Origin: Inquilinus sp. Marseille-Q2685
Lineage (GTDB): Bacteria; Pseudomonadota; Alphaproteobacteria; DSM-16000; Inquilinaceae
Length of the DNA: 64,000 nucleotides
Assembly: GCF_916619195.1 (NCBI RefSeq)
Contig: NZ_CAKAKL010000001.1
Coordinates: 682,001 to 746,000 of the forward strand
Direction of reading: 5' to 3'
Shown here: in pieces, positions 50,236-63,395 of the stretch
Position numbering within the stretch: position 1 is the first letter of the stretch
Layout of the letters: each line of letters starts with the position of its first letter
The notes under the pieces: model-generated
Database searches by the model: none
What the model saw: the letters and a program-made list of their open reading frames with translations, nothing else
Told to the model about the DNA's origin: nothing
Program-made: the position numbers and the translations under genes

Positions 50236-50369
50236 CACCCCCTCACCCTCCCGCCGCCTGCGGCGTCGGGCCCCTCCCTCTCCCCGAGGAGAGGGATGCT
50301 GTGCGCTGCCCCTTCACCTCTCCTTGGGGAGAGGTCGAAATCGCGCCAGCGATTTCGGGTGAGGGGGTG
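50236..50369. repeat. Palindromic repeat with CACCCCCTCACCC ends
   Basis: A 134-nt element with ends CACCCCCTCACCC and GGGTGAGGGGGTG. It contains internal hairpins (CCTCTCC around GAGGAGAGG, and GAAATCGC with GCGATTTC). It is inserted in the plus-strand operon between the ATPase and deaminase genes, so the repeat is transcribed within the operon. Confidence 0.75.
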
Positions 50370-50417
50370 CGCCGGCCTCGCCGTCAGCGCGACGGTCCTC
50401 CAGCGAAAGATCGCCTG

Positions 50418-51728
50418 ATGTTCACCCCCTCCGTCCTTGCCCTCGCCCCGATCCTCGACGCCCCGATCGACGGCGCCAGCAAGGGCCTGCCGCCCGGCCT
50501 GAAGCCGATCCCGTTCCGCAGCATCGGCGACCAGGGCTGGAACGCGCTGTCGGGCGACCTGCCCTTCCCGCAGGCGCTGCTGAAGCGGTCGGTCTTGGAG
50601 CGCAATGCCCGCTGGATGCGCGACATCCTGGCCGAGACCGGCGTCGCCCTGGCGCCGCACGGCAAGACCACGATGAGCCCGCAGCTGTTCGACCTGCAGC
50701 TCGCCAACGGCTCCTGGGGAATCACCGTCGCCACCGCCCAGCAGTTCGAGGTGTGCCGCCGCTACGGGGTGAAGCGGATCCTGGTCGCCAACCAGCTGGT
50801 CGACGCCGCGGCGATGCGCTCGGTGCTGGCGGCGCTGGCCGCCGATCCGGATCTCGAGGCCTTCTGCCTGGTCGATTCCGTTGCCGGGGTGCGCCGCCTG
50901 GCCGAGGCCGCGCGGGCCACGCCGCCGCGGCGCCCGCTGGGCCTGCTGGTCGAGATCGGCATGGCCGGAGGCCGCACCGGCTGCCGCACCGCCGCCGAGG
51001 CGCTGGAGGTGGCCCGGGCCGCGGCCGATGCCCCCGGCCTCGCCCTGCGCGGCGTCGAGGGCTATGAGGGTCTGGTCGTCACCAGGGACGCGGCGGCGGA
51101 CGAGATCGCCGTCAGCGGTTTCCTCGACCGGCTGGCGGCGCTGGCGGCGGAAATCGACGGCGCCGGGCTGTTCTCCACCGAGCCGGTGCTGCTGAGCGCC
51201 GGCGGCTCGGCCTATTACGACATCGTCGCCCGCAGGCTGTCCGAGGTCCGGCTGTCGCGCCCGACCCAGGTGGTGGTGCGCAGCGGCTGCTACCTGACCC
51301 ATGATTCCGGCCAGTACACCCGGCTGTTCGAGCACATCGTCCGCCGCATCCCGGCCGACTGGCGCCGGCACGGCGACCTGGAGCCGGCGCTGGAGGTCTG
51401 GTCGATGGTGCAGTCGCGGCCGGAGCCTGGGCTGGCGCTGCTGACCATGGGCAAGCGCGACGTGTCCTACGACATCGAGCTGCCGATCCCGACCCTTTGG
51501 CGCCCCGCCGGCGCCGCGGCGCCGCAGCCGGTGCTGGCCGGCGCGGTGCTGAGCGCGATGAACGACCAGCACGCCTATCTGAAGCTGCCGGAGGGCTTCG
51601 ACCCGCAGGTCGGCGACCTGGTCTGCTGCGGCATCTCCCACCCCTGCACCACCTTCGACAAATGGCAGGTGATGATGGTGGTGGAGGACGACTACCGCGT
51701 CTCCGGCGCGATCCGGACGTTCTTCTGA
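50418..51728 (+). CDS. D-serine deaminase-like PLP enzyme (amino acid deaminase)
   Basis: 436-residue fold-type III PLP protein of the DSD1/D-threonine-aldolase class. The N-terminal barrel holds the PLP lysine (PHGKTTMSPQ, Lys83), and the C-terminal zinc site is ISHPCTTFDKW. It should eliminate ammonia from a D-amino acid, probably D-serine or a relative, with 2-aminoacrylate as intermediate. That fits the linked RidA. It is translationally coupled to the next gene (TGATG). Confidence 0.82.
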   Translation: MFTPSVLALAPILDAPIDGASKGLPPGLKPIPFRSIGDQGWNALSGDLPFPQALLKRSVLERNARWMRDILAETGVALAPHGKTTMSPQLFDLQLANGSWGITVATAQQFEVCRRYGVKRILVANQLVDAAAMRSVLAALAADPDLEAFCLVDSVAGVRRLAEAARATPPRRPLGLLVEIGMAGGRTGCRTAAEALEVARAAADAPGLALRGVEGYEGLVVTRDAAADEIAVSGFLDRLAALAAEIDGAGLFSTEPVLLSAGGSAYYDIVARRLSEVRLSRPTQVVVRSGCYLTHDSGQYTRLFEHIVRRIPADWRRHGDLEPALEVWSMVQSRPEPGLALLTMGKRDVSYDIELPIPTLWRPAGAAAPQPVLAGAVLSAMNDQHAYLKLPEGFDPQVGDLVCCGISHPCTTFDKWQVMMVVEDDYRVSGAIRTFF

Positions 51729-52648
51729 TGGCCTATGTGGTCGACATCGTCTCGCGCCTGCGCCGCATGGAGGCCTCGCTGCGGCCGTCCGAGCAGCGGG
51801 TGGCCGAGGCGGTGCTGGCCGATCCCGGCTTCGCCACCCGCGCCAGCATCGCCGAGCTGGCGCGCCGCGCCCGGGTCAGCGAGCCCTCGGTCACCCGCTT
51901 CTGCCGCGCCCTCGGCTGCGACAGCGTGCGCGACTTCAAGGTGCGGCTGGCGCAGGACCTGGCCGTCGCCAGCCCCTATCTGGAGCGCCGCCCGCAGGCC
52001 GGCGCGCCGCCGGACGACGTCGCCCAGCTGGCCGACCGGGTGCTGGACAGCGTGATCGAGGCGGTGACCGCCGTGCGCAACCAGCTGGACCCGCAGCCGC
52101 TGCGCCAGGCGATCGAGGCGATCGCCAGGGCGCGCCGGCTCGACATCTACGGCGTCGGCGGCGGTTCGCATGCCGTCGGCCACGACGCCTGGCTGCGCTT
52201 CTTCCGCCTCGACCTGCCGACCGACTTCCATGCCGACACCCAGCTGCAGCGCATGTCCGCCGCGACGCTCGGCCCCGACGACTGCGTGCTGGCGATCTGC
52301 AATTCCGGCCGCTTCCGCGACCTGGTGGAGAGCGTCGAGACCGCCCGGCAATACGGCGCCACCACCGTCGCCCTCACCCGGCCGGACACGCCGCTGGCCC
52401 GGGCCGCCGAGATCGTGCTGGCGGCGGCGCCGCCGGAGGACAGCGACATCTTCAAGCCGACCGCGTCGCGCCTGGCCCATATGGCGGTGATCGACGTGGT
52501 CGCGACCGGCGTCGCCATGCGCCGCGGCCCGGCGGCGCTGGAAAGCCTGCGCCGGGTCAAGCTGAGCCTGAGCCAGATCCCCACCATCGACGAGCCGGCG
52601 ACGCCCGCGCCGCCCCCCTCCGCCCGACGGAAGACCATCCATGCCTGA
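51728..52648 (+). CDS. MurR/RpiR-family transcriptional regulator
   Basis: 306 residues with an N-terminal HTH_6 domain (ASIAELARRARVSEPSVTRFCRALGC) and a C-terminal SIS domain (about 125-265, with ICNSGRFRDLVESV). It typically binds a phosphosugar-like effector and TGTAA-N5-TTACA-type operators. It overlaps the deaminase stop and the D-aminoacylase start, and is probably the regulator of both divergent operons. A C-terminal Pro-rich tail is unusual. Confidence 0.9.
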   Translation: MAYVVDIVSRLRRMEASLRPSEQRVAEAVLADPGFATRASIAELARRARVSEPSVTRFCRALGCDSVRDFKVRLAQDLAVASPYLERRPQAGAPPDDVAQLADRVLDSVIEAVTAVRNQLDPQPLRQAIEAIARARRLDIYGVGGGSHAVGHDAWLRFFRLDLPTDFHADTQLQRMSAATLGPDDCVLAICNSGRFRDLVESVETARQYGATTVALTRPDTPLARAAEIVLAAAPPEDSDIFKPTASRLAHMAVIDVVATGVAMRRGPAALESLRRVKLSLSQIPTIDEPATPAPPPSARRKTIHA

Positions 52649-54095
52649 CCGCGCCTCTTACGACCTCCTGCTCCGCAACGGCACCGTGATCGACGGGTCC
52701 GGCGCCCCCCGCATCCAGGCCGATGTCGCGATCCTGGGAGACCGCATCGCCGCCGTCGCCCCGACCGGCGGCATCGCGCCCGAGCGGGCGCGGGAGAGCA
52801 TCGACGTCGCCGGCCGGGTGATCGCCCCCGGCTTCATCGACGTGCACACCCATGACGACCGGGCGGGGATCGACGGCCCGGACATGCTGCCGAAGATCAG
52901 CCAGGGCGTGACCACCGTGGTGGTCGGCAATTGCGGCATCAGCCTGTCGCCGCTGACCCTGGACCGCGCCCCGCCGCCGCCCTTGAACCTGCTGGGCGAC
53001 CAGGCCGCCTACGAGTTCCCGAGCTTCGCCGACTACCGCGCCCGGCTGGACCGGGTGGTGCCGGGCGTCAACGTGGCGGCGCTGATCGGCCATTCCTCGC
53101 TGCGCATCGGCACCATGGCGGATGTCGGCCGCAAGGCGGATGCCGGCGAGATCGACGCCATGCGCCGCCTGCTGGCCGACAGCCTGGATGCGGGCGCCAT
53201 CGGCTTCTCCACCGGCCTCTACTACAAGCCGAACGCCGCGGCCGACGCCGACGAGGTGGCGGCGCTGGCCGAGCTGCTGGCCGACCGCGGCGGCGTCTAC
53301 GCCACCCATATGCGCGACGAGCACGACAAGGTGCTGGATTCGCTGGAGGAGAGCTTCAGCACAGCCCGCCGCGCCAAGGTGCCGGTAGTGATCTCGCACC
53401 ACAAATGCGCCGGGCCGCACAATTGGGGCCGCAGCCGCGAGACCCTGCCGGTGATCGAGGCGGCGAGCAAGACCCAGCCGGTCGGCCTGGACGCCTATCC
53501 CTACACCGCCGGCTCGACCGTGCTGGATCCGGACCATGTCACCGGCGACATCCGGATCATGGTCGCCTGGTCCAAGGCGAAGCCGGAGATGGCGGGCCGC
53601 GACCTGGCCGACATCGCCGCCGAATGGGGCTGCACCGAGAAGGAGGCGGCGGTGCGGCTGCATCCGGCCGGCGCCATCTATTTCCAGATGGACGAGGCCG
53701 ATGTCCGCCGCATCCTGTCCTTCCCGCTGACCATGATCGGCTCAGACGGCCTGCCGCATGACAGCCACCCGCATCCCCGCCTGTGGGGCACCTTCCCGCG
53801 CGTTCTGGGCCATTACAGCCGCGACCTCGGCCTGTTCCCGCTGGAGACGGCGGTGCACAAGATGACCGGCCTGTCGGCGATGCGCTTCAACCTGCCGGAC
53901 CGCGGCCTGGTGCGCGAGGGCCACGCCGCCGACCTGGTGGTGTTCGACCCGCACCACATCGCCGACGCCGCCACCTTCGAGGCCCCGAAGACCCCGTCCC
54001 GCGGCCTCGACTTCGTGCTGGTCAACGGCTGCATGTCCTGGCGCGCGGGAGAGACCGAGGTCGACCGGGCGGGGCGGCTGCTGGCGCGGGGGTAG
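52641..54095 (+). CDS. D-aminoacylase (N-acyl-D-amino-acid deacylase)
   Basis: 484 residues, the size of Alcaligenes D-aminoacylases. An amidohydrolase barrel with metal motif FIDVHTHDD, the cysteine in VVGNCGISL, histidines in THMRDEHD and SHHKCAG, and the aspartate in GSDGLPHD. It removes the acyl group from N-acyl-D-amino acids to give free D-amino acid. Its start overlaps the RpiR gene by 8 nt. It supplies substrate for the deaminase in the same operon. Confidence 0.87.
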   Translation: MPDRASYDLLLRNGTVIDGSGAPRIQADVAILGDRIAAVAPTGGIAPERARESIDVAGRVIAPGFIDVHTHDDRAGIDGPDMLPKISQGVTTVVVGNCGISLSPLTLDRAPPPPLNLLGDQAAYEFPSFADYRARLDRVVPGVNVAALIGHSSLRIGTMADVGRKADAGEIDAMRRLLADSLDAGAIGFSTGLYYKPNAAADADEVAALAELLADRGGVYATHMRDEHDKVLDSLEESFSTARRAKVPVVISHHKCAGPHNWGRSRETLPVIEAASKTQPVGLDAYPYTAGSTVLDPDHVTGDIRIMVAWSKAKPEMAGRDLADIAAEWGCTEKEAAVRLHPAGAIYFQMDEADVRRILSFPLTMIGSDGLPHDSHPHPRLWGTFPRVLGHYSRDLGLFPLETAVHKMTGLSAMRFNLPDRGLVREGHAADLVVFDPHHIADAATFEAPKTPSRGLDFVLVNGCMSWRAGETEVDRAGRLLARG

Positions 54096-54234: not shown

Positions 54235-55380
54235 ATGGTTGTGTTCCGGATGAGAAGAACCGCTCTGCGCCAGTGGCAGGCAGTCTGCCTTTGCTTCCTC
54301 GCGTTCGTGGGCTGCGCAAGAGATCCGGATGCCGGGGCCTCGAAGCCGAAGCTTGTCTCCTATGACCTCCCTTCCGAGAACCCCGTGCGGGAGATCGGGG
54401 CGACCCAAGCCTTGGCTGCGGCAGGCCGTCTCTGGCTGGTCGGCAGAGGTGGAGGCTTGGCGTCCTTCGGACTCGAGGGCGACTTCCGGAACGGCACCTT
54501 TGCCAGCGATGTGTTGTTCGCCGCGAAGTCTGGCGGAACGCTTTGGGTGCTGCGATCGACCGAAGTGCGGTATCGCGAGGTAGAAGATCCTCCGACACGC
54601 ATCCCAATCGGAGGCACCTTCGTCGTCTCAAAATGGGCCGGAGGGGCGTTCGAGGATTCGGCCCCGCTCAGGCTGTCCGAAATGCCGACGGCCCTGGCCA
54701 TTTCCCAGGACGGGTCTCGTCTCGTCGTCTCGCCCAGCCGGATCAGCAACCTTCCGGGCGGATCCCGTCGTTGGACCTCCCGCAAGCTGAAAGGACCCGC
54801 CGAGCCTCTGCACCCACCCTCCACGCCAGCGATCGCGATGATCGGCGACGACCTTTATCTGGGCTTCAATTTCGGCGAGTTCGGCGGCGGCCTTCGAAAG
54901 GTCTCGCTCTCAACCGGCGTCGCCCGCAACATCGTCTACAAATACGGCCAAACGCCCTGTCAGGGATGCGAACCGATCACCGGCATCATCGCCGACCCGG
55001 CCTCCCCAGACTGCATCCTGATCTCGGCCGGCCTGATCCACATGATGTCCTGGGGCCGGATCTCTCAGATCTGCGGCGACCGGGCAACAGTCAAATTCGA
55101 GAAGACCTTCACGGTCGACTGGGGCAGGAAGTCGATAGAGATGACCGTGCCGTTCTTCGGGATCGCAGCGGCACCGCCCGGGGGCTTCTGGGCGATCGCC
55201 CCCGGGACGCTCTACCGGTTCGAGGGTCAGGATCCGAAGGAATACCCTCTGTCTGAGCCCAAGACCGCCGACGGCTTGGTCATTAACCGCGATCTTCCCG
55301 GCGTCATCATTGTCTATACCAATGCGAACCAGGCCTTTTCCCTGAGCGGCACGACACCGATGCTCGTCCCCCTGGATTGA
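54235..55380 (+). CDS. Predicted lipoprotein, paralogue of 57711 gene
   Basis: 381 residues. The N-terminus is basic and hydrophobic, ending in a lipobox-like FVGC, so it is probably an outer-membrane or periplasmic lipoprotein. The rest is predicted beta-rich with repeated short strands, perhaps a propeller. It shares landmarks with the other paralogue: LYLGFNFGEFGGGL, PITGII and ILISAGLIHM, and two Cys in TPCQGCEP. No family recognised. Codon use and base composition look less GC-biased than the operon before it. A hairpin precedes its ribosome site. Confidence 0.7.
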   Translation: MVVFRMRRTALRQWQAVCLCFLAFVGCARDPDAGASKPKLVSYDLPSENPVREIGATQALAAAGRLWLVGRGGGLASFGLEGDFRNGTFASDVLFAAKSGGTLWVLRSTEVRYREVEDPPTRIPIGGTFVVSKWAGGAFEDSAPLRLSEMPTALAISQDGSRLVVSPSRISNLPGGSRRWTSRKLKGPAEPLHPPSTPAIAMIGDDLYLGFNFGEFGGGLRKVSLSTGVARNIVYKYGQTPCQGCEPITGIIADPASPDCILISAGLIHMMSWGRISQICGDRATVKFEKTFTVDWGRKSIEMTVPFFGIAAAPPGGFWAIAPGTLYRFEGQDPKEYPLSEPKTADGLVINRDLPGVIIVYTNANQAFSLSGTTPMLVPLD

Positions 55381-55444: not shown

Positions 55445-57052
55445 TCACCGCATCAGCTTGGCGAAATCCCCATCCAGCCTCGCCAGCGCGGCATCGATCA
55501 CGCCGCGCCGCTCCTTGATCCAGGCATCCTGCTCCGCCAGCCCGGCCCGGGCCTTGGCGATCATGCGCTCCATCTCCGCCGGCTGCGGGCCGCCGGTCGT
55601 GGCACGGGCCTTCACGATCGCCACCGGGTCGAGCGCGGCGCGGAACTCCGCCTCGGCCATCGGCAGCGCCTGCGGGTATTTCGTGCCGGCGACGGCCTCG
55701 GCATAGATCCGCTGCGCCTCGGCATAGGGGAAATCCAGCGGCTTGATGCCGTTCTGCCGGGCGTAGTCCACCACCTCCGACGCGAAATGATGGCCCTCGC
55801 GGAAGGGCAGGCCGTATTTGCGCATCAGGATGTCGGCCAGCTCCTGCGAGGCCGTCCAGTCGCTGTTCAGCTCCTCCAGCGCCCGGTCGCGGTTGATCAC
55901 CAGTGCCTTCAGCACGCGGTCGAGACCCTTCAGCGTTTTGATGCCGGCCTCGACCATCGCCGTGTTCTGGTCGACATCCTTCGGGTCCGGCATGCCCGGC
56001 GTGATGTTGTGGGTCTGGATGATCGGCCCGAGCGCCAGCGTCACCGCCGTCGACGCATCGCTGCGGGTCGAGTTGAGCAGGCCCGGATTGCGCTTCTGCG
56101 GCATCGCGCTCGACACATAGGTGTTGCCGCCGCCCTCCTCCAGCAGGATCCAGGGCCGCGGCCCGGCATATTGCGTCATGACGTCCTCGACGAAATTGCC
56201 GGTGTGCAGGGCGATCGCCGTGACCACCGCCCCGACCTCGACCGGCTCGTCCATCGAGGAGATCTGCGAGGCGTCATAGGCGTTGTCGACCAGCTGCGCG
56301 AAGCCGAGATAGTCGGCCATGCGCTGGCGGTTCAGCGGCCAGCCGGTGCCGTTGAGCACCGTCGTGCCCATCGCCGACCGGTCGATGCGCGCATAGGCCT
56401 GGCGGATGCGCTCGGCATCGCGCGCGAAGCCGGCGGCATGGCCCAGCAGATAGTGGCCGAAGCTGTTCGGCTGGGCGGCGACGCCATTGGTGTAGTTGGG
56501 AACGACGGTGTCGGCATGCTTGGCCGCCAGCTCGACCAGCGTCGCGGCCGTGACGTTGAGCTGCTCGGCCAGGTCCAGCAGGTCGTCGCGCAGGATCGCC
56601 GCGCGGTAGGTGGCGTGCATGTCCTGGCTGGAGCGACCGGCATGCAGCAGGGTGACATCCACGCCGCCAGCCTTGATCAGCAGCGGCTCGAAGGTGATCA
56701 CGCTGCTAGGCCGCCGGGCCCCTTCCTTGTTGCCGTCCTCGATGACCTTGGCGATGGCCGCCGCGATGCCCGGCGCCAGCTGCTTGTCCAGCAAGCCCTC
56801 ATCGGTGTTGATGACGGCGGTCGCCTTGTTGATCTCCCCGAGCCAGAAGAACTCGTCGCGCTCGGCGGCAGAGGCGCCGGCCGGCCACAGCGATGCCGCG
56901 GCGAGGGCGGAGATCAGCAGGGGGCGCCGGAGCGGTCGTCCGGGCCGTGAACGCCTCTCCGGGCCTGCGGGGATCCCGATTGCGCTGGCCATGGCTGACA
57001 ACCCGGCCGCGCTCGCCGCCGCGCGAATCGCGGCTCGACTCATCAACGCCAT
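55445..57052 (-). CDS. Exported argininosuccinate lyase/fumarase-superfamily lyase
   Basis: 535 residues. The superfamily signature SSAMPQKRNP is at 314-323, with the GRSSQDMH segment and AQPNSFGHYLL. In the segment where argininosuccinate lyases have a catalytic Thr-His (YTH), this protein has YTN (Asn189). A hydrophobic, possibly twin-arginine signal segment (RRPLLISALAAASLWPAGASA) follows an odd ~40-residue N-terminal stretch, suggesting export. The start has AAGGGGG 5 nt upstream. The substrate is unknown, and the His-to-Asn change argues against argininosuccinate. Confidence 0.78.
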   Translation of the reverse strand: MALMSRAAIRAAASAAGLSAMASAIGIPAGPERRSRPGRPLRRPLLISALAAASLWPAGASAAERDEFFWLGEINKATAVINTDEGLLDKQLAPGIAAAIAKVIEDGNKEGARRPSSVITFEPLLIKAGGVDVTLLHAGRSSQDMHATYRAAILRDDLLDLAEQLNVTAATLVELAAKHADTVVPNYTNGVAAQPNSFGHYLLGHAAGFARDAERIRQAYARIDRSAMGTTVLNGTGWPLNRQRMADYLGFAQLVDNAYDASQISSMDEPVEVGAVVTAIALHTGNFVEDVMTQYAGPRPWILLEEGGGNTYVSSAMPQKRNPGLLNSTRSDASTAVTLALGPIIQTHNITPGMPDPKDVDQNTAMVEAGIKTLKGLDRVLKALVINRDRALEELNSDWTASQELADILMRKYGLPFREGHHFASEVVDYARQNGIKPLDFPYAEAQRIYAEAVAGTKYPQALPMAEAEFRAALDPVAIVKARATTGGPQPAEMERMIAKARAGLAEQDAWIKERRGVIDAALARLDGDFAKLMR

Positions 57053-57241
57053 CGTTTCCCCCTTGGCTGTTTGAGAGGCAACGCTAGCATCCGTCGGTTT
57101 TGCCGGACAATCTCGATGGGCTTCGAATCCTTTCCGAATGTCAGCCAAGCGGACCGGAGCCGGACGGGATCGACAGGCCGGCGGTGATCGCCGATGCTGG
57201 TCGCCGATTTTTTTAGCTGCGCATTTCCGGGAGAGAGTCCG

Positions 57242-57697
57242 ATGCTGGTCCTGGCATTCCTGATCGGCTGTGTCGCCGGGCTGCGGACGATGACCGGGCC
57301 GGCGGCCGTCAGCTGGGCCGCCCATCTCGGCTGGCTGCCGCTCGACGGCACCGGGCTGGCTTTTCTCGGCGCCGCGGTCACGCCCTGGCTGCTCACCCTC
57401 GCCGCGATCGCCGAGCTGGTCGCCGACCAGCTGCCACGCACGCCGAGCCGGAAGGTGCCGGTGCAGTTCGGCGCCCGGATCGTCAGCGGCGCGGTCTGCG
57501 GCGCCGCCTTCGGCATCGTCGGCGGCTCGGTGATCGGCGGGATCGCCGCGGGCATCGCCGGCGCGGTGGTCGGGACACTCGTGGGGTACGAGCTGCGGTC
57601 CCGGCTGGCCCGGGCCGCGGGCCGCGACCTGCCGATCGCCCTGCTGGAGGACGCGATCGCGATCGGCGGCGCGATCTGGATCGTCGCGTCGCTTTGA
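57242..57697 (+). CDS. DUF4126 family membrane protein
   Basis: 151 residues with several hydrophobic segments. Motifs GCVAGLRTMTGPAAVSWAA, ELVADQLPRTPSR and ALLEDAIAI are typical of DUF4126 proteins. GGAGAGAGTCC lies before the ATG. Function unknown. It is 13 nt upstream of the second lipoprotein and is likely cotranscribed with it. Confidence 0.78.
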   Translation: MLVLAFLIGCVAGLRTMTGPAAVSWAAHLGWLPLDGTGLAFLGAAVTPWLLTLAAIAELVADQLPRTPSRKVPVQFGARIVSGAVCGAAFGIVGGSVIGGIAAGIAGAVVGTLVGYELRSRLARAAGRDLPIALLEDAIAIGGAIWIVASL

Positions 57698-57710: not shown

Positions 57711-58856
57711 GTGCACGGCTTCCGGATGCTTATCGTCACCACGACCGTGGTGCCGTTTCTGCTTCTTGCAGGATGCAGCGGCTCGCCAGGGCGATCGGGA
57801 GGCTCTACCGACGTTGCCATGGCTGCAGAGCGCACTTCTGGGCCGGGCCAGGTGGCGACGACAGGCGAATATCGAAACTACAGCCGGGGCCTGAGCCTGG
57901 GCGGCCGGCTGTGGCTGCGCAACGAGGATGGCAGCCTGGCTTCCCTGACGCTGCCCGGCGGCGTGCGCACGCCCCATTTCACCGACGGTGTGATCGACCT
58001 CGCCGTGTCGGACGGAAAACCGGTCGTCTTGCGATCGCTCTCCCTCAACCCGTTCGATATGGAGGAGACGTTCCGGCCGGCCGGCGGCACCTTCGTCCTG
58101 TCGTCGTGGACAGGGGACGTGTTCAAGGATTCCGAACCCCTCAAGCTGCCACTGATGCCGCGAGCGCTGATCATCGTCAACGGGCGCCCGATGGTGCTGT
58201 CGCCCCGCCGGATAGATATCCAGGGCGCCGACGGACGCTGGACGTCAAAGCCCCTGAAGGGCGAGATCCGGGGTCATCCGACTGCCGACTCCCCGATCGT
58301 CCTGGCGGTCAACGGGCAGTTGTACATCGGCCACGACTTCGGCGAATGGGGTGGCGGCCTGCAGCGTCTGGACCTGGCGACCGGCGTCGTCACCGACATC
58401 GGGCGGGACAGCAACGGAGGGTGCACCGGCCACCTGTGCGGTCTTCCTATCACCGGGCTGATTCAAGCCTCCGGTGAGCCGGGTTGTATCCTGGCTTCCA
58501 CCGGGCTGGCGCACATGGTCTTGCAGCAGGGTGCCATCCTGAAGCTGTGCGAAGACCAGGTTTCAGTCGTCTGGGAGAAGGCGTGGATGCAACAATTTCC
58601 CGGAGGGGTGTTCCGGCAAAGCGAAGCCTTCTACGGATTGGCCGACGGAGCCCAAGGTGAATTCTGGATCCTCGGGTATGGCGTGCTATACCGGTTCGAC
58701 GGGACTCATGCCGTCGCGGTTCCGATACCAGAGCTAGCCAAGCTGGGGGACGTCTGGATCAGCCGCGTCATCCCAGGCCATATGATGATCTATTACAGCC
58801 CGGTTGCACCGGAACCGCTGGGAAAGCCCATGCCCCATCTCATCACCCGGGAATGA
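57711..58856 (+). CDS. Predicted lipoprotein, paralogue of 54235 gene
   Basis: 381 residues, the same length as its paralogue. It begins with a hydrophobic helix and lipobox LLLAGCSGS. It starts with GTG at 57711, 7 nt after GAGGAAGG; an ATG at 57726 is an alternative. Shared features are LYIGHDFGEWGGGL, LCGLPITGLI and ILASTGLAHM. It probably sits in the envelope. No function recognised. Confidence 0.72.
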   Translation: MHGFRMLIVTTTVVPFLLLAGCSGSPGRSGGSTDVAMAAERTSGPGQVATTGEYRNYSRGLSLGGRLWLRNEDGSLASLTLPGGVRTPHFTDGVIDLAVSDGKPVVLRSLSLNPFDMEETFRPAGGTFVLSSWTGDVFKDSEPLKLPLMPRALIIVNGRPMVLSPRRIDIQGADGRWTSKPLKGEIRGHPTADSPIVLAVNGQLYIGHDFGEWGGGLQRLDLATGVVTDIGRDSNGGCTGHLCGLPITGLIQASGEPGCILASTGLAHMVLQQGAILKLCEDQVSVVWEKAWMQQFPGGVFRQSEAFYGLADGAQGEFWILGYGVLYRFDGTHAVAVPIPELAKLGDVWISRVIPGHMMIYYSPVAPEPLGKPMPHLITRE

Positions 58857-61851: not shown

Positions 61852-62000
61852 TCAGAGACCGTCTGGAAATGCGCTGGCGCGAGCCGGCTGGTGGTGATTT
61901 CGAGAACCGGAGCGCAGCGGACGGTCAAGTCCGTGAGCACCGGAAGCGGAGAAATCGCCATCAGACGGCCGCGCCAGTAGCATTTACAGGCGGTCTCTCA
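61852..62000. repeat. Long-hairpin interspersed element, copy B (149 nt)
   Basis: The outer arms are 61852-61872 and 61980-62000. Stem CTGGCGCG pairs with CGCGCCAG; copy A has CTGGCGTG with CACGCCAG, a T-A to C-G covariation. The next stem (CTGGTGGTGATTTC with GAAATCGCCATCAG) is fully paired with G-U wobbles. The apical hairpin GCGGAC-GTCCGT covaries with GCGCAC-GTGCGT of copy A. The right end supplies the TGA stop of the M20 peptidase gene (stop at 61998-62000). Confidence 0.85.
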
Positions 62001-63305
62001 CTCCATGCCGGCCGCGGCCAGGATGGTCGCCAGGCTGGTCGCCATGCCCTTGACCATCGGCTCCTTCTCGATGTCGAGCCATTCGTCGAGCGAATGCGAC
62101 CGGCCGTTCTTGTCCGGCCCGTTCTTGCCCAGGGTCACGGCGGGGATGCCGAGGCTCCAGGGGATGTTCGAATCGTTCGAGCCCTCGCGCGGCCCCTTGA
62201 ACTCGTAGCCCGCGGCCAGGATCGACGCCTTGGCCAGCTGGAACAGCGGCTCGGTCTCGGCGATGGTGCCCGGCGGCCGGTCGCCGATCACCGTGGCCTC
62301 GACCGTGATCTTGCCCTCCTTGGTCGAGCGGGCGAAGTTCTCGGTGTCCGCCGCCTGCTGGATGATGGCCAGCAGGCGCTGCTCCATCTTGGTCAGCTCC
62401 GCGGCGTCGCCGGACCGCATGTCGACCTCCATCGACACCTCGAGCGGGATCGAGTTGACCGAGGTGCCGCCCTTCAGCACGCCGACATTGTAGGTCACCT
62501 TCGGGTCGGTCGGAACCTCGGTCCGGGCCAGCAGCGAGATCGCCTCCGCCAGCGCATAGCTCGGATTGACCAGGCCGAAGGCGCCGAAGCTGTGGCCGCC
62601 CGGCCCCTTGAAGGCGATGCGGTAGCGCTTCGACCCGACGCCCTGGTTGGTGAAGGTGTCGGCCGACCCGCCCTCCATCGAGAAGAAGGCCTTGATCCGG
62701 TCCCTGTACTTGCCCTCGGTGAACAGGTGGCGCACGCCGCGCAGGTCGCCCAGCCCCTCCTCGCCCACGGTGCCGACGAACAGGATGGTGTCCTTGTGCT
62801 TGATCCCGGCCGCGTCCATGGCGCGGATGTAGGACAGCAGCGCCGCCAGGCTGAAGGTGTCGTCGCTGACGCCCGGGGCGTTCAGCCGGGTGCCGTCGCG
62901 CCGCACGGTGACGTCGGTGCCCTCCGGGAACACGGTGTCGAGATGGGCGGAGACGACGACGACGCGGTCGTCGGCGCCGGTGCCCTTCCGCAGGCCCAGG
63001 ACGTTGCCCTCCTCGTCGATCTCGACCTCGGCCAGGCCGGCGCCCTTGAACAGCTCGGCATAGGCCTTGGCCCGCGCCTCCTCCTTGAAGGGCGGGGCCG
63101 GGATCTCGACGAGCTTGATCCCCTCGGCGACATAGGGCTCGTAGTTCCGGTCGATGTGCTCGACCGCGGCCTTGTAGGCGGCGCTTTCCCGCACCGTCTG
63201 GATCTGCGCCGCCGCCTGCGTCGCCGCGTCGTCGGCGAAGGCCGGCAGGGCCAGGCCGGCGGCCATGGCGGCGGCCAGAATCGATCGTCGTGGCAGAAAT
63301 GACAT
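61998..63305 (-). CDS. M20/M25/M40-family metallopeptidase, exported
   Basis: 435 residues. The signal peptide (RRSILAAAMAAGLALPAFA) implies a periplasmic enzyme. The M20 zinc motifs SAHLDTVFPEG, GVSDDTFSLAALL and the GTVGEEGLGD glutamate are present, with the dimerisation domain between. It is probably a di- or tripeptidase-like (PepT-like) or acylase. The ATG at 63305 has GGGAGG a few bases upstream; a longer start at 63365 adds residues before the signal peptide. Confidence 0.87.
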   Translation of the reverse strand: MSFLPRRSILAAAMAAGLALPAFADDAATQAAAQIQTVRESAAYKAAVEHIDRNYEPYVAEGIKLVEIPAPPFKEEARAKAYAELFKGAGLAEVEIDEEGNVLGLRKGTGADDRVVVVSAHLDTVFPEGTDVTVRRDGTRLNAPGVSDDTFSLAALLSYIRAMDAAGIKHKDTILFVGTVGEEGLGDLRGVRHLFTEGKYRDRIKAFFSMEGGSADTFTNQGVGSKRYRIAFKGPGGHSFGAFGLVNPSYALAEAISLLARTEVPTDPKVTYNVGVLKGGTSVNSIPLEVSMEVDMRSGDAAELTKMEQRLLAIIQQAADTENFARSTKEGKITVEATVIGDRPPGTIAETEPLFQLAKASILAAGYEFKGPREGSNDSNIPWSLGIPAVTLGKNGPDKNGRSHSLDEWLDIEKEPMVKGMATSLATILAAAGME

Positions 63306-63395
63306 GCGCCCCCTCCCCTGACATGCCGTATACCCGGACGCTACCACTTGTCCGACAAGCGTCAAGCCGCCGTGAGGGGTGCGGCGTCGTCCGCC

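Follow-up and report, generated by a model that had tools for sequence, protein, structure and literature searches.

A predicted exported lyase of the fumarase/argininosuccinate-lyase family in Inquilinus that lacks the histidine-glutamate pair

To our knowledge, the members of the aspartase/fumarase superfamily are known as cytosolic enzymes. A delta-crystallin study describes the hydrogen bond between a histidine and a glutamate, a pair presented there as highly conserved superfamily-wide, and reports that delta-crystallin without that glutamate retains an activity of about 10% (PMC2779060). The structure PDB 1dcn, a delta-2 crystallin His-to-Asn mutant, is titled inactive. The EDDS lyase of Chelativorans sp. 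BNC1 (PDB 6g3d-6g3i, 6rx8) carries Gln159 at the histidine site; this glutamine is one of six residues located 4-6 Å from EDDS, and the Q159C and Q159M variants were among the most active on a new substrate (PMC12363623). The loss of the histidine need not, then, mean a loss of catalysis. The S-(2-succino) lyases (2SL), members of the lyase class I family, split fumarate off N-acetyl-2-succinocysteine (PMC9706529). Finally, Table 2 of a further study counts three "argininosuccinate lyases" of Achromobacter xylosoxidans among the putative Tat substrates and gives them as expressed in the periplasm (PMC11533796). Judged by title and start of abstract, this was the only relevant report on exported superfamily members among the open-licence papers listed, and no study of the branch described here, or of periplasmic fumarate-adduct catabolism, was found in the open-licence literature searched. 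The lyase analysed below belongs to a scattered and, it seems, unstudied branch of the fumarase/argininosuccinate-lyase family.

Assignment, active site and distribution of the lyase

The window, a stretch of 64,000 nucleotides from Inquilinus sp. Marseille-Q2685, contains on its reverse strand an open reading frame whose product has the Lyase_1 domain, the SSxMPxKxNP loop and the fold of the aspartase/fumarase superfamily (Table 1). A preliminary description of this DNA had proposed here a fumarase-superfamily lyase that keeps SSAMPQKRNP, and both points hold, the protein being nearest to EDDS lyase and next to argininosuccinate lyase (ASL, ArgH). The best NCBIfam model was argH with a score of 198.2 bits, below its cut-off of 279.5, and two relatives scored 191.6 and 192.0 bits with the same model. 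The closest solved chains by sequence were 6rx8 (1.8e-42) and 6g3d (2.1e-42), deposited as argininosuccinate lyase yet titled EDDS lyase; argininosuccinate lyases came next. The AlphaFold monomer model has a mean pLDDT of 81, with the active-site loops 188-193 and 313-320 under 50, and its best fold match is again EDDS lyase, which occupies Foldseek ranks 1-4. In VIA, EDDS lyase gave a Z of 38.0 (453 aligned, 3.6 Å) and the best delta-crystallin row 33.4, all ASL/delta-crystallin rows being at or below this value. With EDDS lyase the window protein shares no more than about 25% identity, and the tree, whose branches are long and uncertain, did not group the two specifically. A placement of EDDS lyase with one relative (L103) was set aside for its long branches.

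Table 1 Features of the lyase locus, in positions of the window.
Feature	Position	Strand	Basis or remark
Lyase open reading frame, 535 aa + stop	55445-57052	-	Pfam Lyase_1 + ASL_C2
Predicted mature enzyme, residues 63-535, from AERDEFFW	55448-56866	-	Conserved core start in alignment; best fold matches run from residue 62-66 onward; cleavage site inferred
Signal-peptide region, residues 21-62 (MASAIG...AGASA), putative	56867-56992	-	Homologous to I. limosus lyase N-terminus
Codons 1-20 (MALMSRAAIRAAASAAGLSA), fusion scar	56993-57052	-	From 5' end of exported M20 peptidase gene
Leader DNA + 5' codons	56997-57250	-	Match region upstream of / at start of I. limosus M20 gene (L006, L007)
Asn189 codon	56486-56488	-	Site of ASL catalytic His / EDDS lyase Gln159
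Thr188 codon, kept	56489-56491	-	Alignment
Signature loop SSAMPQKRNP, residues 314-323	56084-56113	-	Alignment
Asn327 codon	56072-56074	-	Site of Glu that H-bonds catalytic His in ASL/delta-crystallin

The sequence alignment with ASL, EDDS lyase and the paralogues showed that Ser141, Thr188, Ser314, Ser315, Lys320 and Asn322 of the window protein are shared with ASL and EDDS lyase, and the six residues are invariant in 35 aligned homologues. Ser314 stands where ASL has its catalytic serine. Thr188 is directly followed by Asn189, where E. coli ASL has Thr-His, and Asn327 replaces the ASL glutamate that is the partner of the catalytic histidine. Both changes, Thr-Asn and Asn at the glutamate site, were found in 66/66 sequences, that is the window protein and 65 of 67 close loci, the truncated loci L067 and L072 being left out. 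Asn189 had been placed at the ASL histidine site from the start, and this assignment stands, since no histidine was recovered there in the alignments with ASL, EDDS lyase, paralogues and homologues; the further wording that the catalytic Thr-His is lacking was right for the histidine but not for the threonine, which is kept. Beyond the preliminary description, the aligned sequences show that the glutamate pairing with this histidine has disappeared too and that these traits are common to a whole clade.

The 67 close loci came from a scan with one genome per species and were located in Inquilinus, Achromobacter, Bordetella, Paracoccus, Herbaspirillum, Aureimonas, Bosea, Cupriavidus and others. 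The family is sporadic: 5/398 Pseudomonadota genomes matched at 1e-55 (the window's own genome, three with 67-71% and a further one with 41% identity), and 2/385 genomes of the window's class did so, one being its own and the other holding a 30% relative with Thr-His and Glu. Plasmids gave 204 records matching at 1e-20, of which 14 are 60-80% identical; the homologues named there (10 of the 14) are called "argininosuccinate lyase" or "lyase family protein". Since the homologues lack a defining residue pair of ASL, the first of these names wants correcting if the enzyme is active. Compared with two I. limosus copies over 473 codons, the window gene showed dN/dS of 0.17 and 0.14, and it is under purifying selection. 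These ratios, together with the Thr-Asn found throughout the homologues, argue that the change of His to Asn is more than chance.

The genome encodes four other superfamily matches. One of them, L002, is an ArgH-type protein that has kept Thr-His and Glu, so the window lyase is probably not the argininosuccinate lyase of the cell. The L002 locus also matches a DAP/ornithine-decarboxylase-like protein.

Predicted export signal and origin of the long N-terminus

Residues 42-62 form the signal-like segment noticed earlier (RRPLLISALAAASLWPAGASA), with AERDEFFW directly behind it. The export features of the window protein and its 65 close homologues were scored heuristically, with start codons picked by script. 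In 66/66 the hydrophobic stretch is followed by a permissive A-x-A-like site, in 62/66 the hydropathy over 12 residues reaches 1.6 or more (1.52-1.59 in the other four) and in 64/66 K/R comes ahead of the stretch; all three heuristics were passed by 60/66, the remaining six missing one. The 35 aligned sequences have first residues that vary between genera and an unchanging start of the mature core (D-x-FFW). The window protein is thus predicted to carry an export signal, which would be of Sec type. An RR pair is present in 7/66 sequences, window included, and Tat export was considered on that account and rejected: the strict motif [ST]RRx[FL][LVI] occurs in 0/66, although a Tat prediction is published for proteins of the same name (PMC11533796).

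The lyase is present in two of five other genomes of the genus. In I. limosus (L006, L007), an exported-looking M20 peptidase gene directly precedes it. Positions 57250-57010 of the window match the leader and first M20 codons of L007 (83% over 243 aligned columns) and positions 57250-56997 match L006 (72% over 269 columns), while from 56960 on the window sequence matches the lyase's own N-terminus. The gap between the two matches is 1452 bases in L007 and 49 in the window. A DUF4126-like gene (57194-57697; Pfam score below cut-off) has its start on the far side in both the window and I. limosus. This arrangement amounts to an in-frame fusion by deletion, in which codons 1-20 derive from the M20 peptidase gene and Met21 is the former lyase start. 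A purine-rich GAGGGGAG lies upstream of the I. limosus lyase start and is absent before Met21 of the window, which suggests that translation probably starts at Met1, using the ribosome-binding site of the peptidase. The "very long N-terminus" of the preliminary description therefore does contain extra codons, but these come from the 5' end of a neighbouring gene and form no special domain. Elsewhere in the window, at 61998-63365 (reverse strand), an exported-looking M20 peptidase is encoded that shares 80% identity with the peptidase absent from the lyase locus; this copy is the only other of its type in the genome at 1e-60.

Wider clade and gene neighbourhoods

Distant relatives were collected from one alphaproteobacterial genus (26/265 genomes, 27 matches at 1e-70; in the order of that genus 1/297 matched) and from one betaproteobacterial order (32/300 at 1e-100 by profile, both clades described below together). 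The tree was built with 72 rows selected by similarity to the window protein, most of the 67 close loci and L155, L156, L157 and L159 being left out; support is the SH-aLRT of a quick search, and signal peptides were assigned by eye from the N-termini. A clade of 44 rows (support 97), spanning Alpha- and Betaproteobacteria, has Asn, Trp or Met at the histidine site and Asn, Met, Val or Leu at the glutamate site, with a signal peptide scored in 42/44 rows. Its sister clade of 15 rows (support 98; L150, L151, L170-L172, L174-L183) keeps Thr-His, in the motif [YF]THGVQAQP, and Glu, and was scored without signal peptide; the two clades are joined at support 99. The calls for L150 and L151 are uncertain because a hydrophobic stretch lies upstream in frame, and they were scored as lacking a signal peptide because sister rows start downstream of that stretch. 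Over the whole tree, 42/42 signal-peptide rows lack both His and Glu, and of the 30 rows without signal peptide, 26 have both, L166, L173 and L100 lack both, and the EDDS lyase row, whose first 39 residues are outside the alignment, has Gln and Glu. The fewest changes on the tree were three for His, two for Glu and two for the signal peptide. Signal peptide and loss of the pair match on the tree, so both map to one branch, which supports an evolutionary link between export and the altered active site. L166 and L173, placed within the exported clade, probably lost their signal peptide. The L166 genome holds a second copy of the family. The two sister clades, with and without the pair, make the role of the His-Glu pair testable by comparison.

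All-against-all clustering of the open reading frames from the 67 loci and the window gave no partner conserved across genera, and no common partner was found in seven annotated plasmid neighbourhoods from the 14 records at 60-80% identity. Genes of TRAP DctM or TTT TctC type made up 8/83 immediate co-directional neighbours versus 25/1015 other genes (Fisher p 0.002, or 0.007 once the doubtful overlapping frame L031 is taken out), in a count that ignores kinship, may include the same genome in both collections, takes mechanical reading frames as genes and has Pfam for some members only. Three of these eight neighbours (L187-L189) adjoin the sister clade without signal peptides, where a TctC-type gene lies just downstream in three of ten loci examined. 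For the exported clade alone the count was 5/74 versus 23/931, with a Fisher p of 0.049 that became 0.13 without L031, so the transporter link is not firm for this clade. Betaproteobacteria have many TctC genes. In one genus a porin-like gene (Pfam for L192) is located 2-9 bases upstream (L191, L192, L200).

In the alphaproteobacterial genus, a homospermidine synthase gene is upstream of the lyase in 15/25 matches examined (L107, L118-L130, L152; the L152 lyase frame is short, 417 aa), and genes of the Orn/DAP-type decarboxylase, GNAT and RidA families come before the synthase in six loci read over 12-13 kb, the Pfam families being taken from one locus. This might be a polyamine operon. The synthases are at least 95% identical, the operon being confined to one lineage, and the synthase had no match in the other loci, window and close homologues included. 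The neighbourhoods hint at a small substrate bearing amine and carboxylate groups, without naming it.

A D-serine-dehydratase/alanine-racemase-type PLP protein, an RpiR/HexR-like regulator and an amidohydrolase are clustered at 50328-54095 (forward strand) and possibly serve D-amino-acid use. This cluster was rejected as a lyase partner, just two of its open reading frames recurring, beside one I. limosus lyase. Two 381-aa proteins flank the lyase (54235-55377 and 57711-58853, both forward), 36% identical over 329 columns; they have lipoprotein-like N-termini and no Pfam or NCBIfam match.

Proposed reaction, alternatives and comparison with known systems

The reading we favour, with even odds in our estimate, is that of a periplasmic fumarate-releasing lyase of EDDS-lyase type, acting on an N-(1,2-dicarboxyethyl)amine. 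A Sec-type signal peptide would deliver the protein to the periplasm, where the tetramer of the superfamily would be formed. The enzyme would then eliminate fumarate reversibly, in the EDDS-lyase mode, from an N-(1,2-dicarboxyethyl)amine, i.e. an N-substituted aspartate, the candidates being an aminopolycarboxylate or an adduct of an amino acid or polyamine. By homology, Ser314 of the loop would take the beta-proton and Thr188, Ser315, Lys320 and Asn322 would hold the succinyl part. Asn189 would take the part that Gln159 has in EDDS lyase and position the substrate, in place of the ASL His-Glu relay, which is dismantled at both positions in the exported branch.

A reaction other than argininosuccinate cleavage is likely. 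The loss of the histidine argues against argininosuccinate as the substrate, and we hold a true periplasmic argininosuccinate lyase to be very improbable: several plasmid records do name the homologues so, and the Lyase_1 and ASL_C2 matches agree with the name, but the argH score stays below the cut-off, the same His-to-Asn change is titled inactive in delta-crystallin, and the His-Glu pair is gone in a genome that has an ASL-type paralogue with both residues. The same losses, with the low activity that delta-crystallin kept when the glutamate alone was missing (PMC2779060), could also point to a catalytically dead scaffold or a carboxylate-binding protein with a non-enzymatic role, as in delta-1 crystallin. 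This we find unlikely, given that none of the 35 aligned homologues departs from Ser314, Thr188, Lys320 or Asn322, that dN/dS is low and that EDDS lyase shows the histidine to be dispensable for catalysis on other substrates.

The conserved active-site core leaves the leaving group open, and a C-S (or C-O) lyase that acts in the periplasm on succinated thiols or alcohols and frees their fumarate, as 2SL enzymes do with N-acetyl-2-succinocysteine, has a small chance in our view; the M20 hydrolase beside the I. limosus lyase could act on its N-acyl product. Against it, the nearest relative of known structure is a C-N lyase, and the Pfam-scanned neighbours (20 proteins, 14 loci) showed no yxe-like gene set. 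The adding direction, in which an aminopolycarboxylate (a chelator or a modified polyamine) would be built from fumarate in the periplasm, runs readily in EDDS lyase (PMC12363623, PMC10792612), and the relative that follows homospermidine synthase would suit it. Fumarate is, however, normally intracellular, and the polyamine operon is found in one genus only and was not seen next to the window gene and its close homologues, so we rate synthesis as rather improbable.

Returning to the fumarate-releasing lyase, we propose, tentatively and with more doubt than belief, that one ancient event exported an ASL-like enzyme, dismantled its His-Glu relay and founded a periplasmic branch cleaving fumarate adducts (chelators, modified amino acids, polyamines), the carboxylate or fumarate being then taken up. 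If active, the protein would be an exported C-N lyase whose natural substrate is still to be found, and a possible addition to the EDDS-lyase biocatalysts.

Among the described systems, 2SL resembles the window protein in its lyase class I family and in fumarate release (PMC9706529), and differs in the C-S bond, the likeness being one of description only. The periplasmic A. xylosoxidans proteins bear the same database name as the homologues and may belong to this family or be mis-named proteins (PMC11533796); one A. xylosoxidans genome searched gave one close homologue and one ArgH-type match. They differ in their Tat listing, the close homologues, Achromobacter included, being without the strict motif. 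ArgH and delta-crystallin share the fold, the Lyase_1 and ASL_C2 architecture, the Ser loop and the Thr, and are distinguished by Thr-His with the partner Glu; the ArgH-type rows of the tree showed no signal peptide. With this pair absent and the NCBIfam cut-off not reached, the window protein would not be classed as a member of ArgH. EDDS lyase is the best match in sequence and fold, is likewise without the ASL histidine and has the same SS.MPQK.NP loop, Thr, Lys and Asn, its Asn288 being kept as Asn322. It differs in keeping Glu293, at the site of Asn327, and on the substrate side, where Arg112, Asn113, Gln159 and Asp290 correspond to Ser142, Gln143, Asn189 and Gly324 of the window protein and Tyr320 is paired with Met354 or Pro355 according to the alignment used. 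From these aligned positions, the window protein is not simply an EDDS lyase, and its substrate specificity must differ.
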